Source of the DNA: an uncultured Paracoccaceae bacterium
GTDB lineage: Bacteria > Pseudomonadota > Alphaproteobacteria > Rhodobacterales > Rhodobacteraceae
DNA: 64,000 bases
Assembly (NCBI GenBank): GCA_947493335.1
Contig: CANLQO010000001.1
Coordinates: forward strand, 806,001 to 870,000
Direction: 5' to 3'
Shown: positions 54,746 through 60,217 of the stretch, piece by piece
How the letters are laid out: each line of letters begins with the position of its first letter
Position numbering within the stretch: the first letter of the stretch is position 1
Position numbers and translations under genes: made by a program
Notes under the pieces: model-generated
What the model saw: the letters and a program-made list of their open reading frames with translations, nothing else
Told to the model about the DNA's origin: nothing
Databases searched by the model: none

Positions 54746-55007
54746 CTACAGGCTCCAGCCAATGGGCATAGATTTCGGCCTCAAGCGTATCTTCAGGCGC
54801 TTCGGCTGCGTCACCCCAAAGCTCTGCCATGGAAAAGCGGACGCGGTGCAAGATCAGCGACTGACCAACATGGCCGTAGGCGAGGTCTTCGGGATTTGGG
54901 AAAGGGCCAAGCAGGCGTTCAGTGACGCCGATTTTGCCACGGAGATAGGCAGGTGTGCGGACGTGGCCCGGCGGCATATCGGCGCGGACCTTAACGCGCT
55001 GCATCCG
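54735..55007 (-). CDS. nitrile hydratase beta subunit, C-terminal (SH3-like) half as a separate ORF
   Basis: MQRVKVRADMPPGHVRTPAYLRGKIGVTERLLGPFPNPEDLAYGHVG...VRFSMAELWG; overlaps neighbours on both sides. Confidence 0.88.
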   Translation of the reverse strand, partial: RMQRVKVRADMPPGHVRTPAYLRGKIGVTERLLGPFPNPEDLAYGHVGQSLILHRVRFSMAELWGDAAEAPEDTLEAEIYAHWLEPVDAP

Positions 55008-55341
55008 ACGCCTCTCCATAGGTGGTGCCGCGCGCCTGAACTTGCGCCATTTTGGTAGCGAGTTCCGCGGTCGTATAAGCGCCGGCCTCAATCAGATTCT
55101 GATTAACGGATGCAATCCAGCGTTCGTAGTAAGTCATGGTTTCAAAGCTGTCTTCGCCCATGTCTTCTAACACGCGACGAAGTCCATCAACGGTGAAGAG
55201 CCCTTTGCCAGAACAAAGCACCATCAATGCATCGACGCGTTTTTCCCACAATGAGAAGTCATGCTGGTCGGTGGGCACGGGCCCGGCAATATCGCCGCCC
55301 ATGTCGTGCCAGCGACGCCCGTCGAAAGAAGCATTTGTCAT
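54991..55341 (-). CDS. nitrile hydratase beta N-terminal half/accessory (P14K-like) protein
   Basis: W-EKRVDALMVLCSGKGLFTVDGLRRVLEDMGEDSFETMTYYERWIASVNQNLIEAGAYTTAELATKM. Confidence 0.85.
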   Translation of the reverse strand: MTNASFDGRRWHDMGGDIAGPVPTDQHDFSLWEKRVDALMVLCSGKGLFTVDGLRRVLEDMGEDSFETMTYYERWIASVNQNLIEAGAYTTAELATKMAQVQARGTTYGEASDAAR

Positions 55342-55419
55342 GGTGACAGGTTAGGTCAGCGGCGCAGGCGGGTCCAGTCCTTGCGCGTCATTCGGGCTGA
55401 TGGATTTATGGTCCAGGCC

Positions 55420-56487
55420 CTATGCTGCGTCGGCTTCTTCTTCCTCATCCGGAGAACGCAGTTTGATCGTTCCGGCGTCGGCCAGCGCACGAATGGCGCC
55501 CGTGACCTTGTTCATGGCAGCTTCACCCACCTTGGCGCTTACCTTGCCCAGCTCCGCTGCATCTTCGCGCATCTGCCCAGCCATACGCTGAGAGATGTTG
55601 GCTAGCACATGTTCGGCGGCGTCGTTCAATTCGCCACCTTCAGATTGGGCATAGGCAATCGCTGTGTTCAGATCTTCGGGATCGATGCTGCGCAATGCGG
55701 CGGGGATATCTGTAGGTTGCATCCGTGACGGGATGTCAGCGAACGTAAAGATCGCTTTGCGAACGGATTTGGCAAGCGCCGCATCAGCCCCTTCCAGTCC
55801 ATCCAGCAGATCGTCCCGAGTGGACGCTGGGCTGGAATTCAAGATCGCACCGATCCGGTCAACCGGCGGCTTTTCAAACGCGGTTACAACGGTCTGACAA
55901 TATTCCTGCACCAAAGCCTCCCCTATGCGGGCGATTGCAGCGGGAGAGGCGGTTTCGGTCTGGCTGACGGCAAATGTGATGCGGCGCGCCTGATCGCCGG
56001 GCAACCCACCCAACACTTCTGCGGCACGCTCTACTGTTAACTTGGACAAAACGATTGCGCCGACCTCCACACTTTCAGCCTGAAAAATGGGCAGCAGATC
56101 ATCAAGGTCCAGCCCGACAATCCTTGGCCAAGGGTCCTGACCCTTTTGGGCGTCAAGTTGTGCCTGCAACTTTCGCGCCAGCGCTGGAGAGATGTGTTCG
56201 GACAAGGCCGCCAGTGCCGCGCTTGCACCGCCGGGCGCGGAAAGACCAATGGATGCGAGGATCGTGGCAAATTCCTCTGCCACGGCGTTGACGGTGGCGC
56301 GGTCGACAAGGCGGATTTCGCCCAGTTCCTGTGCAAGATCGGCCTGAATGTTTTCCGGCAGGGACGACAGGGCAAGCTTGTTGCCATCACTGATCAGCAG
56401 TTGCACGACCAGCGCCGCCTTGCGACGACGGGTCAAATGCGCCAAGGGCGCGGGCGAGGAGGGGGAAGTTGCGGAACTGGGCGTCAT
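55420..56487 (-). CDS. FliG-like flagellar motor switch protein (orphan)
   Basis: LTRRRKAALVVQLLISDG...LSSLPENIQADLAQELGEI; C-terminal VLANISQRMAGQMREDAAELGKVSAKVGEAAMNKVTGAIRALADAGTIKL resembles FliG C-domain. Confidence 0.78.
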   Translation of the reverse strand: MTPSSATSPSSPAPLAHLTRRRKAALVVQLLISDGNKLALSSLPENIQADLAQELGEIRLVDRATVNAVAEEFATILASIGLSAPGGASAALAALSEHISPALARKLQAQLDAQKGQDPWPRIVGLDLDDLLPIFQAESVEVGAIVLSKLTVERAAEVLGGLPGDQARRITFAVSQTETASPAAIARIGEALVQEYCQTVVTAFEKPPVDRIGAILNSSPASTRDDLLDGLEGADAALAKSVRKAIFTFADIPSRMQPTDIPAALRSIDPEDLNTAIAYAQSEGGELNDAAEHVLANISQRMAGQMREDAAELGKVSAKVGEAAMNKVTGAIRALADAGTIKLRSPDEEEEADAA

Positions 56488-56524
56488 AGAGCCGTCTTAG
56501 GCCCGCACCCCTAAAGAAGCGTTA

Positions 56525-57016
56525 TCAGCCGGCGCCCGTTCCGACATTGATTGCGATTTTCCGCAAATTCTGGGTCATCTCGGGTGAGATCGCCTTGATT
56601 TGCCCTGTCAGGACATGGATTTCTTCCATCGCCGCGCGCAGTTCAGCGACCTCGGTATCGCTGAATTCGCGATCCGCGCGGGCAAAACTCGAAATCGACC
56701 GGCTTTCATCGACCTCGATCGCGACCGTTACGCCGAACTTCAAACCATACTCGGCCGCTTTTGCCATGACGCCGGCTGGATCGTTCTCGGCCAATTCAGA
56801 CCAGCGCTTGGTTCCAAGATGTTCAAAGCCCCAGGCCACCGTTGGATCCTGCATGACAAGACCGTTCTGGGAGTAGTAATCCGACCAGGCTTTTGGATAG
56901 GTCTGGAACAGAAAAGTCGGGGTGGTGTAGCGGATATGAAAGGCCAAAGCATATCCCGCCGGCGCCGAATCCTTGAGCTGCGTCAGGGTTTCGCTGATGT
57001 CTTTTTCGGTCGTCAT
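56525..57016 (-). CDS. LuxR-type autoinducer-binding domain protein lacking HTH
   Basis: 163 aa; PKAWSDYYSQNGLVMQDPTVAWGFEHLGTKRWSEL matches AHL-binding domain signature; no GerE HTH; stop 37 nt before next ORF. Confidence 0.82.
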   Translation of the reverse strand: MTTEKDISETLTQLKDSAPAGYALAFHIRYTTPTFLFQTYPKAWSDYYSQNGLVMQDPTVAWGFEHLGTKRWSELAENDPAGVMAKAAEYGLKFGVTVAIEVDESRSISSFARADREFSDTEVAELRAAMEEIHVLTGQIKAISPEMTQNLRKIAINVGTGAG

Positions 57017-57077
57017 TTTTGACAGCTACTCGCTTTGAGGTTGCCAATGTGTCATGGCTGCAAATATTCTGAACCGC

Positions 57078-57099
57078 ATAGGTTCTCCACAAAGCCTAT
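57078..57099. promoter_or_regulatory. imperfect dyad in HTH-less luxR / luxR divergent intergenic region
   Basis: ATAGGTTCT-CCAC-AAAGCCTAT. Confidence 0.35.
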
Positions 57100-57149
57100 A
57101 TGCATCTCGCGGCAGACGATAGCCGTGGCAACCCAAGAAAAGGACAGTG

Positions 57150-57758
57150 ATGTCAACTGTGCTGAGCCTCGATGACGTTGGCCAGCTTGCTCCGGCGGGT
57201 TACTACATCGCGTTGCGAATTGGGTTTGCGTTTCCGGTGGAAGAGGTGAATGCGCTTCCGCCGCAGTGGGTCGAATACTACACCCGGCAGCGCCTGATGC
57301 TGTTTGATCCGGCCATCAGGTGGGCCTATTCCAATACCGGCGTGGTAGATTGGAACGACCTTGTCAGTGACGATCCAAAGGGAGTGCTGGGCAAGGCGCG
57401 TGACTATGGTTTGCATCACGCCATCACGATATCTGTCTTTGATGGAAATTCCGAAGGACAGCGTTCATTTGGGACATTTGTTCGGAGCGACAAGCCGTTT
57501 ATTGACTTGGAAATCAAACTCTTAAGCGCTTTTCTTAATCGGCGTCATCAAGAAATGGCACCCCCAACTAATTTGACAGAGGCGGAACTTTCTGCGCTGC
57601 GGATGGTTAAAGATGGAATGCGGCTTAAACAGATCGCGTTTGAACTGAAAGTCACAGAGGGTGCTGTCAAGCAGCGCCTGAAGAATGCCAAGGACAAACT
57701 TGGTGCCAAAACCTCGACGCAGGCGGCCACCATGGCCGCCCAATACGGCATTATCTAA
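57150..57758 (+). CDS. LuxR-family AHL-responsive transcriptional regulator
   Basis: WVEYYTRQRLMLFDPAIRWAYSNTGVVDWNDL autoinducer domain plus LTEAELSALRMVKDGMRLKQIAFELKVTEGAVKQRLKNAKDKLGAKT HTH. Confidence 0.93.
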   Translation: MSTVLSLDDVGQLAPAGYYIALRIGFAFPVEEVNALPPQWVEYYTRQRLMLFDPAIRWAYSNTGVVDWNDLVSDDPKGVLGKARDYGLHHAITISVFDGNSEGQRSFGTFVRSDKPFIDLEIKLLSAFLNRRHQEMAPPTNLTEAELSALRMVKDGMRLKQIAFELKVTEGAVKQRLKNAKDKLGAKTSTQAATMAAQYGII

Positions 57759-57881
57759 TCCCTAACCAATTGTTTCCGTATTAACGTCAATTCCCCTTTT
57801 TTGATGGGTTTGTTGCGAAGTTAGTAGAACAACCTTACGTTGCAATGATAGCATTGAACGCACTCAAAAGGAGCAAGTTCA

Positions 57882-58532
57882 ATGGAAAATATTACGTTTA
57901 ACCTCGCGCAATCACACCTCTTTGGTCCGGCCTTTTTCGACTTCCTCGCCCTACGGAAGCGATTCTTTGTCGACACGTTGGGATGGGATATCCCGCATGA
58001 TGACGACGTTGAAATGGATCAGTATGACAACCCTAAGGCGTGGTATTCGCTCGTCCTTGAAGACGGTGAAGTTGTTGGCGGCGCACGTGCCATGGCGACC
58101 ACCACGCAGTGGGGCAGCCACAGTTACATGCTGCGCGATGCGCTTCAGGGAAAGCTGATTGATATCCCTGCCAGCGTCATGCCCGCCGATGTTTGCACGC
58201 CTGATATCTGGGAATGCACGCGGCTGGTGATTTCGGATGACGTCAAGACCCACGCAGCCCGCAGTACCTGCCTTTCGTTGATTGTGCAGGGGTTGATCGA
58301 CGTGGCAGCCGATGCGGGCGCGAACCGCCTGATGTCATTGTCGCCGCTGGCGCTGATGCGCGCATTGCGGCAACTTGGCTTTGGGGCAGAGCGCCTTGGT
58401 GATCCCTATTTGAATGAGGGCGACGGACGCCGCTATGCGGTTCTTGGCATGCCTGTTGAACGGCGCACGCCTATTCCGCCCGCCGCGACACATATGCCGC
58501 AGCCCGCTGTGGTACACGCACCTTCGGTCTAG
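57882..58532 (+). CDS. acyl-homoserine-lactone synthase (LuxI family)
   Basis: LRKRFFVDTLGWDIPHDDDVEMDQYDNPKAWYSLV, WECTRLVIS; downstream of luxR; SD aaaaggagc. Confidence 0.93.
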   Translation: MENITFNLAQSHLFGPAFFDFLALRKRFFVDTLGWDIPHDDDVEMDQYDNPKAWYSLVLEDGEVVGGARAMATTTQWGSHSYMLRDALQGKLIDIPASVMPADVCTPDIWECTRLVISDDVKTHAARSTCLSLIVQGLIDVAADAGANRLMSLSPLALMRALRQLGFGAERLGDPYLNEGDGRRYAVLGMPVERRTPIPPAATHMPQPAVVHAPSV

Positions 58533-58541
58533 GGATGTGGG

Positions 58542-58562
58542 GGGTGGGCAAATTGCCCACCC
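58542..58562. repeat. REP-like palindrome / bidirectional hairpin between convergent genes
   Basis: GGGTGGGC-AAATT-GCCCACCC followed by TAC. Confidence 0.6.
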
Positions 58563-58571
58563 TACAGTGTC

Positions 58572-58745
58572 TTAGCCTGTGACAAGCGGCACGCATGTGC
58601 CGGTTTCATGGTCCATCATGGACCCTTCGGCGCAGGACATCGCTGTGGTGTCTTCATGCATTGCACCGCCCCGACAATCCTGCGCAAACGCAAGCCCGGG
58701 CAGGACAGTCAGCAACACTGCTGCAAACGTGGTCTTGATCGTCAT
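58572..58745 (-). CDS. small secreted Cys/Met-rich protein
   Basis: signal peptide MTIKTTFAAVLLTVLPGLAFAQ then DCRGGAMHEDTTAMSCAEGSMMDHETGTCVPLVTG. Confidence 0.6.
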   Translation of the reverse strand: MTIKTTFAAVLLTVLPGLAFAQDCRGGAMHEDTTAMSCAEGSMMDHETGTCVPLVTG

Positions 58746-58831
58746 CTTCGCCTCCGTTTGATTGGTAGGCAAAACCTAACACGACAGGGTCAAAAGTCAC
58801 GCGTCACGATTGTGTCATGACCTATCCAGCG

Positions 58832-60133
58832 TCAGCCAAAGACACGTTTGAAAATCGTGTCGACGTGTTTGGTGTGATAATCAAGATTGAATTTCTCGTT
58901 GATCGCGTCTTCACCCAAAGCGGCAACGACATCGCTATCAGCCAGAAGTTCCTCGCGAAAATCGGTTCTGTGTTCCCAGACCTTCAGCGCGTTGCGCTGC
59001 ACCATGGAATAGGCGTCCTCTCGGCTCACGCCTGCCTGTGTGAGCGCCAGAAGCACCCGCTGCGACATGACCAGCCCCGGGAATTTGTTCATGTTGTCGA
59101 GCATGTTGTCTGGGAAGATCAGCATCTTCTCGATCACACCCGTCAGCCGGTTCAGCGCAAAATCGAGGGTGACGGTTGCATCCGGGCCAATGCCGCGCTC
59201 GACCGACGAATGCGAGATATCACGCTCGTGCCAAAGTGTGACATTCTCCATCGCGGGGATCACCGTCATGCGGACCAGACGGGCAAGGCCGGTCAGGTTT
59301 TCGGTCAGAACCGGGTTTTTCTTGTGCGGCATGGCCGAGGAACCCTTTTGTCCCATGGAAAAGAACTCAGCACCTTCAAGCACTTCGGTCCGCTGCATGT
59401 GCCGGATTTCGGTGGCGACGTTTTCAATGGAAGACGCAATGACGCCCAATACCGCAAAGAACATCGCGTGGCGGTCGCGGGGGATCACCTGGGTGCTGAT
59501 TGGCTCGGGGTTAAGGCCCAATTTGGCACAGACATGTTCTTCCACCGCAGGATCAATGTTTGCGAATGTTCCAACGGCACCCGAGATCGCACCGGTTGCG
59601 ATTTCTTCGCGGGCGGCGACCATCCGGGCGCGGTTGCGATCCATTTCGGCATAGAACCGTGCAAAGGTCAGCCCCATTGTCGTGGGTTCGGCATGTATCC
59701 CGTGGCTCCGGCCGACGCGCACGGTCATCTTGTGTTCCATCGCGCGTTTTTTCAGTGCTGCAAGCAGCGCATCGAGATCGGCGATCAGGATATCGGCGGC
59801 GCGCACCAATTGCACGTTGAGGCAGGTATCTAGCACGTCAGAGCTTGTCATGCCCTGATGCACAAAGCGTGCCTCTTCACTGCCAACGTGCTCGGCCAGA
59901 TGAGTTAGAAATGCGATGACATCGTGCTTGGTGACGGCCTCAATCTCATCAATCCGCGCGACGTCAAATTCCACGTCCTTGGCTTTCCAGACAGCTTCGG
60001 CATTCTCCCTCGGGATAACGCCCAGATCGGCCATTGCGTCGCAGGCATGGGCCTCGATCTCGTACCAGATGCGGAACTTTGTAGCAGGGTCCCAAATGGC
60101 GGTCATCTCGGGGCGGGCATAGCGTGGGATCAT
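58832..60133 (-). CDS. purB: adenylosuccinate lyase
   Basis: MIPRYARPEMTAIWDPATKFRIWYEIE; GQKGSSAMPHKKNPVLTENLTGLARLVR. Confidence 0.97.
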   Translation of the reverse strand: MIPRYARPEMTAIWDPATKFRIWYEIEAHACDAMADLGVIPRENAEAVWKAKDVEFDVARIDEIEAVTKHDVIAFLTHLAEHVGSEEARFVHQGMTSSDVLDTCLNVQLVRAADILIADLDALLAALKKRAMEHKMTVRVGRSHGIHAEPTTMGLTFARFYAEMDRNRARMVAAREEIATGAISGAVGTFANIDPAVEEHVCAKLGLNPEPISTQVIPRDRHAMFFAVLGVIASSIENVATEIRHMQRTEVLEGAEFFSMGQKGSSAMPHKKNPVLTENLTGLARLVRMTVIPAMENVTLWHERDISHSSVERGIGPDATVTLDFALNRLTGVIEKMLIFPDNMLDNMNKFPGLVMSQRVLLALTQAGVSREDAYSMVQRNALKVWEHRTDFREELLADSDVVAALGEDAINEKFNLDYHTKHVDTIFKRVFG

Positions 60134-60217
60134 GTCGTTGGCCTTTTTGTGAATGGCAGAGCCGTCGCGGGCGTCATAAGGTGAAGGGCGAAAGGTCACA
60201 AGACAGGAGGCGGCCAG

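Follow-up and report, generated by a model that had tools for sequence, protein, structure and literature searches.

The window analysed here is a 64,000-nucleotide stretch of contig CANLQO010000001.1 from an uncultured Paracoccaceae bacterium of the family Rhodobacteraceae. It contains a quorum-sensing locus at which a gene for a LuxR-type protein without a helix-turn-helix (HTH) DNA-binding domain faces the genes for a full-length LuxR regulator and a LuxI-type N-acyl homoserine lactone (AHL) synthase (Table 1). An earlier note on this DNA had claimed that the 163-aa minus-strand open reading frame (ORF) carries an AHL-binding signature and no GerE-type HTH. The Pfam scan agreed with this: the ORF, which starts with ATG, gave a PF03472 match of 54.8 bits (cut-off 23) and no PF00196 match, and is thus not of the canonical LuxR makeup with both domains; NCBIfam returned just weak SdiA/TraR N-terminal matches. 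All six AHL-pocket residues (W44, Y48, D57, P58, W72 and G95) are present, with a spacing of eight residues between YY and DP instead of the six given in the note. The AlphaFold2 (AF2) model of the protein had a mean pLDDT (predicted local distance difference test) of 92; its top PDB matches were the LuxR-type receptors RhlR, SdiA, TraR, QscR and CviR, and a PDB-sequence profile search led to the same receptor families. As had been stated, the ORF stops cleanly 37 nt (56488-56524) before fliG, and therefore there is no space for a lost HTH. The facing ORF has both PF03472 and PF00196 and the next one has PF00765, so that the head-to-head arrangement with a complete luxR-luxI pair was also borne out. 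The points on which the note could have failed all came out in its favour, given that there is no PF00196 match, no frameshift, and an HTH-less form that is conserved in the relatives.

Table 1. Features of the quorum-sensing locus, with positions in the window
Feature	Position	Strand	Evidence
HTH-less autoinducer-binding protein, putative CerN orthologue, 163 aa	56525..57016	-	PF03472 without PF00196; tree; AF2 model
Full-length LuxR-type regulator, putative CerM orthologue	57150..57758	+	PF03472 (51.7 bits) and PF00196 (35.4 bits); tree
LuxI-type AHL synthase	57882..58532	+	PF00765 (49.4 bits)
Divergent intergenic region between HTH-less gene and luxR	57017..57146	.	sequence; aligned within the genus
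Conserved 23-bp element, sense TTGGCAACCTCAAAGCGAGTAGC	57025..57047	-	genus alignment and cross-genus matching
Hairpin with luxI Shine-Dalgarno and start codon in loop and stem	57852..57884	+	RNA fold -12.3 kcal/mol, z -2.3
fliG, co-directional with and immediately downstream of HTH-less gene	55420..56487	-	FliG N/M/C domains
purB (adenylosuccinate lyase), conserved distal border of 'topology D'; positions are those of the trimmed query, the ORF extends to 60430	58832..60139	-	syntenic in most named loci; PMC3824088

A similar pair has been described in Cereibacter sphaeroides, in which CerM binds DNA without AHL, and CerN, in the presence of AHL, binds CerM so that the pair leaves the DNA (PMC11655674). 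The evidence reported there consists of an AHL-dependent pull-down with CerM, the release of CerM in electrophoretic mobility shift and reporter assays, and motility epistasis, in which the motility defect of a cerN or cerI mutant is suppressed by deletion of cerM. The locus in the window resembles this system in that a PF03472 protein without an HTH, with the same pocket, lies beside a full LuxR, and the divergent arrangement is also found in five Cereibacter genomes. In a tree of 136 binding domains, which included these five genomes, a single branch (98/93) separated all 58 HTH-less proteins, those of Cereibacter among them, from the rest, and all 58 divergent partner LuxRs were grouped (100/98) together with the Cereibacter CerM-type proteins; 20 GtaR-type proteins formed a third group (74/80). 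The two proteins of the window belong to the first and the second of these groups, respectively. The Cereibacter proteins were identified as CerN and CerM not by accession sequence but by the pocket match (WYDPWG in the HTH-less protein, and Phe for Trp57 in the divergent partner, as described for CerM in Table 2 of PMC11655674) and by the gene order cerN-cerM-cerR-cerI. On the basis of the tree, the pair in the window appears to be orthologous to CerN and CerM, and a single old loss of the HTH would be the simplest reading. The two proteins of the window share only about 33% identity (residues 12-134), and this, together with their separate clades, rules out a recent origin of the HTH-less protein by truncation of a copy of its LuxR neighbour.

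We also investigated how widely this form occurs. All six genomes of the genus encode the HTH-less protein (68-72% identity), each head to head with a LuxR. A scan of named genomes gave 26 HTH-less loci, including those of Yoonia, Loktanella, Octadecabacter, Roseobacter sp. CCS2, Salibaculum, Flavimaricola and Cereibacter ovatus, and in a family sample of 348 genomes, with 347 genera among the genomes that passed the quality filter, the form was found in at least 67 genera (the sum of the checked loci). We compared 90 non-redundant HTH-less loci. The head-to-head arrangement with the partner holds for 86 of them, 83 of which were counted by script; the other three (L059, L093 and L162) have stop-to-stop frames that overlap those of the partner. 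A tandem arrangement occurs at three loci (L138, L139 and L141), and at one (L152/L188) no partner lies within the 12 kb that were read. All six pocket residues are kept in 86 of the 90 proteins, which indicates that ligand binding is under selection, and in nearly all HTH-less proteins the C-terminal end is 0-7 residues away from the domain. For close pairs with usable dS, the ratio of nonsynonymous to synonymous substitution rates (dN/dS) ranged from 0.04 to 0.16 in the HTH-less gene and from 0.03 to 0.10 in the partner; the HTH-less gene is under purifying selection. The idea of a pseudogene or decayed LuxR, for which only the missing HTH would speak, can be practically dismissed, as had been argued in the note: the protein has a single old origin, a low dN/dS, an intact pocket and a constant end.

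Of the 60 HTH-less loci for which at least 6 kb of sequence was available, 52 have a LuxI homologue, which usually follows directly after the partner LuxR. Conversely, all five partner LuxRs that have no HTH-less gene (L177, L178, L185, L186 and L187) also have no luxI nearby, compared with an absence of luxI at about 10 of 65 loci with the HTH-less gene (Fisher p 2.5e-4, in a test that ignores shared descent, uses stretches of 4-5.5 kb and takes hand-rounded counts for the latter loci). The HTH-less gene and luxI are thus co-retained or lost together, which supports the CerN-type mechanism favoured below. At one of these loci (L178, genome G294), fliG, luxR and purB are in place, and the HTH-less gene and luxI are both gone. 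Three genomes have two HTH-less/LuxR pairs each (L014 and L031 in G011; L072 and L161 in G358; L146 and L179 in G132), which suggests that the whole pair has been duplicated in some genomes.

Given that the two proteins are the apparent orthologues of CerN and CerM, we favour the same mechanism, and consider it likely that the HTH-less protein antagonises the adjacent LuxR by forming a heteromer with it when AHL is present. As long as cell density is low, this LuxR would occupy its DNA sites without any need for signal. Once enough AHL had been supplied by LuxI, the HTH-less protein would bind it and would pair with the LuxR via its dimerising N-terminal domain; this heteromer would no longer bind DNA, so that the LuxR would be switched off as the signal builds up. 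The ORFs, domains, pocket, assignment to the CerN and CerM clades, conserved pairing and purifying selection come from the present analysis. The AHL-dependent binding and the release from DNA are taken from the orthologue, and the pair in the window would presumably behave in the same way, with the adjacent LuxI as the probable source of its signal. The note had offered three options for the HTH-less protein, namely a ligand sink, a heterodimer inhibitor and a sensor acting through a protein partner. The latter two are now the best supported, because the protein groups with the experimentally tested CerN (PMC11655674); a sink seems very improbable, given the fixed head-to-head partner in 86 of 90 loci.

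Several observations weigh against such a direct transfer from CerN and CerM. The W57F change, which is proposed to weaken AHL binding by CerM and so to leave the sensing to CerN, occurs only in Cereibacter (5 of 89 partners). The window LuxR (202 aa from the ATG at 57150, or 203 aa from an alternative GTG at 57147) keeps Trp at this position and five of the six pocket residues, with Ala as the equivalent of Gly113, and the partners outside Cereibacter usually have an intact pocket (all six residues in 76 of 89 partners overall). Therefore, the partner LuxR itself may respond to AHL. In addition, the pair of Cereibacter lies upstream of a separate cerR-cerI operon that feeds it, and not beside a luxI of its own. 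Furthermore, the published CerM site, TNT(N5)AAGACA(N2)T, was found in none of the 86 divergent intergenic regions, the only regions searched, including that of the window; we also found no report of this motif at cerN/cerM itself.

Because the partner may sense AHL, we also considered a mechanism like that of TrlR. Octopine-type plasmids of Agrobacterium encode TrlR, which, like the protein in the window, is of the LuxR type but has no DNA-binding domain, and which blocks a full LuxR-type protein (accounts cited in PMC11655674 and PMC4338825). In such a case, the partner would be a classical AHL-activated LuxR, and inactive heterodimers would damp or delay its response rather than relieve the action of a regulator that is active without ligand. 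This precedent, the mostly intact pockets of the partners, and the position of the partner upstream of luxI, which is the layout of a classical activator, are all consistent with it. However, the partner clade includes CerM, which binds DNA without AHL and for which a close relationship to GtaR is described (PMC11655674). Moreover, TrlR arose recently as a near-copy of TraR, with which it shares 88% identity in the same cited accounts, whereas the proteins in the window come from two old clades with the low identity given above, which argues that the HTH-less protein is not such a copy. We therefore keep this mechanism open, although we regard it as rather unlikely.

Two further explanations seem much less probable than this. 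If the HTH-less protein were an AHL sink or buffer that sequesters AHL and sets a threshold without contact to a LuxR, an intact pocket, an absent output domain and a gene beside the synthase would all be expected; yet a sink has no need of a fixed partner, in contrast to the head-to-head placement with one particular LuxR clade, and the Cereibacter orthologue directly binds its partner (PMC11655674), so that we consider a sink very improbable. The protein could also be a stabilising co-receptor that chiefly keeps the LuxR from being degraded or joins it in an active heteromer. The drop in CerM levels in a cerN mutant would fit this idea, but CerN opposes CerM genetically and the deletion of cerM suppresses the cerN defect (PMC11655674), and we give a co-receptor hardly any weight.

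The AHL-dependent antagonist remains our preferred explanation. CerN, which has been functionally described in one species, now joins a large and old family that is widespread and has a fixed partner. This points to a normal design of the Rhodobacteraceae in which one LuxR-type protein senses the signal and another binds DNA. In Yoonia vestfoldensis SKA53, the pair is the only PF03472 content found, and thus there is no other LuxR on which the HTH-less protein could act, which also speaks for an action on its partner; species of this type would offer a minimal test system.

The locus type itself is already known, as is the tested protein CerN. It corresponds to the quorum-sensing 'topology D' of Roseobacter, bordered by fliG and the adenylosuccinate lyase gene (PMC3824088), and the order fliG (opposite)-luxR-luxI-adenylosuccinate lyase is also that of the window. 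Table A1 of that paper gives two luxR tags per locus, for example SKA53_05835 and SKA53_05840, and a truncation or absent HTH goes unmentioned. It also corresponds to group 4 of the LuxR solos, 'fliG-[hp-abd]-luxR solo-asl', in which the gene encoding only an autoinducer-binding domain (ABD) is marked; sequestration of ligand or binding to LuxRs was suggested there as a possible role of such proteins (PMC4338825). Neither paper makes a link to CerN, which was described in 2024, and a review from 2026 on the protein partners of LuxR treats TrlR but not CerN. In the literature searched, we found neither the connection between topology D and CerN/CerM nor the wide distribution. What is new here is the apparent orthology, the likely single origin, the co-retention with luxI, and two conserved elements, a 23-bp element and a luxI hairpin, described below.

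The gene next to the HTH-less gene is fliG at 25 of the 60 loci with at least 6 kb of sequence; in Cereibacter ovatus, by contrast, the locus has neither fliG nor purB as a neighbour. The window fliG is the sole FliG found in this genome (G000; single PF01706 match), and we infer that it is co-transcribed with the HTH-less gene. It lies away from FlhA, which sits on another contig; a location of fliG outside the main cluster has already been described (PMC11974857). Since FlhA is present in the genome, we rejected the idea of a lone FliG homologue in a non-flagellate. The genome also encodes five further PF03472 proteins elsewhere (L001, L002, L004, L006 and L007), and because three of their genes (L001, L006 and L007) each adjoin a LuxI-like gene, at least four AHL synthases are probably present in this organism.

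We also analyzed the folding of the start regions. The luxI start region was more stably folded than expected, with a median z of -2.06 (72 loci), compared with 0.31 for the HTH-less gene, 0.24 for the partner and 0.3 for purB (Mann-Whitney p 1e-8, 1e-9 and 1e-5, respectively); it did not differ from that of fliG (p 0.15). The usual form of the hairpin is ACUCUCC-5 nt-GGAGAGU, with the Shine-Dalgarno sequence in the 3' arm and with compensating changes. Over 51 rows anchored on GGAG, unselected for pairing and uncorrected for relatedness, the outer stem pairs formed at a frequency of 0.569, higher than the 0.466 obtained with the 5' halves permuted (2 of 2000). The hairpin in the window differs from this form and occupies the same position, and part of the Yoonia group has no such hairpin; there was no Rfam match in 55000-59000. 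The hairpin might serve to control AHL synthesis at translation or to make it responsive to temperature. We also make a wider and distinctly tentative proposal, in which the split receptor of an HTH-less AHL sensor and a DNA-binding LuxR would be an old Rhodobacteraceae module fed by the adjacent luxI, the topology-D sensor would be co-transcribed with the only fliG of the cell and so link signal state and motor-switch supply, and luxI would also be held back at translation by the hairpin at its ribosome site.

The 23-bp element ends 8 nt before the start codon of the HTH-less gene. Its sequence is the same in the window and in the four genus members aligned with it, while the flanks diverge. 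The element is conserved across many genera: 31 of 86 loci have a recognisable version that matches in at least 14 of 19 positions, whereas the opposite-strand control never exceeded 12. A genome-wide operator was considered and rejected, because no second perfect copy was found in the four genomes searched and near-matches were no commoner than those of a reversed-pattern control. The position of the element fits a role in translation or at the transcript start. It includes a CAACC stretch, and such a stretch also occurs shortly before the ribosome-binding site upstream of luxR (GGCAACCCAAGAAAAGGA, 57127-57144) and upstream of luxI in the Yoonia relatives (ACAACCAGAGGGA, leaders L043-L049). 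The CAACC stretch is possibly a shared target of a small RNA or a protein.
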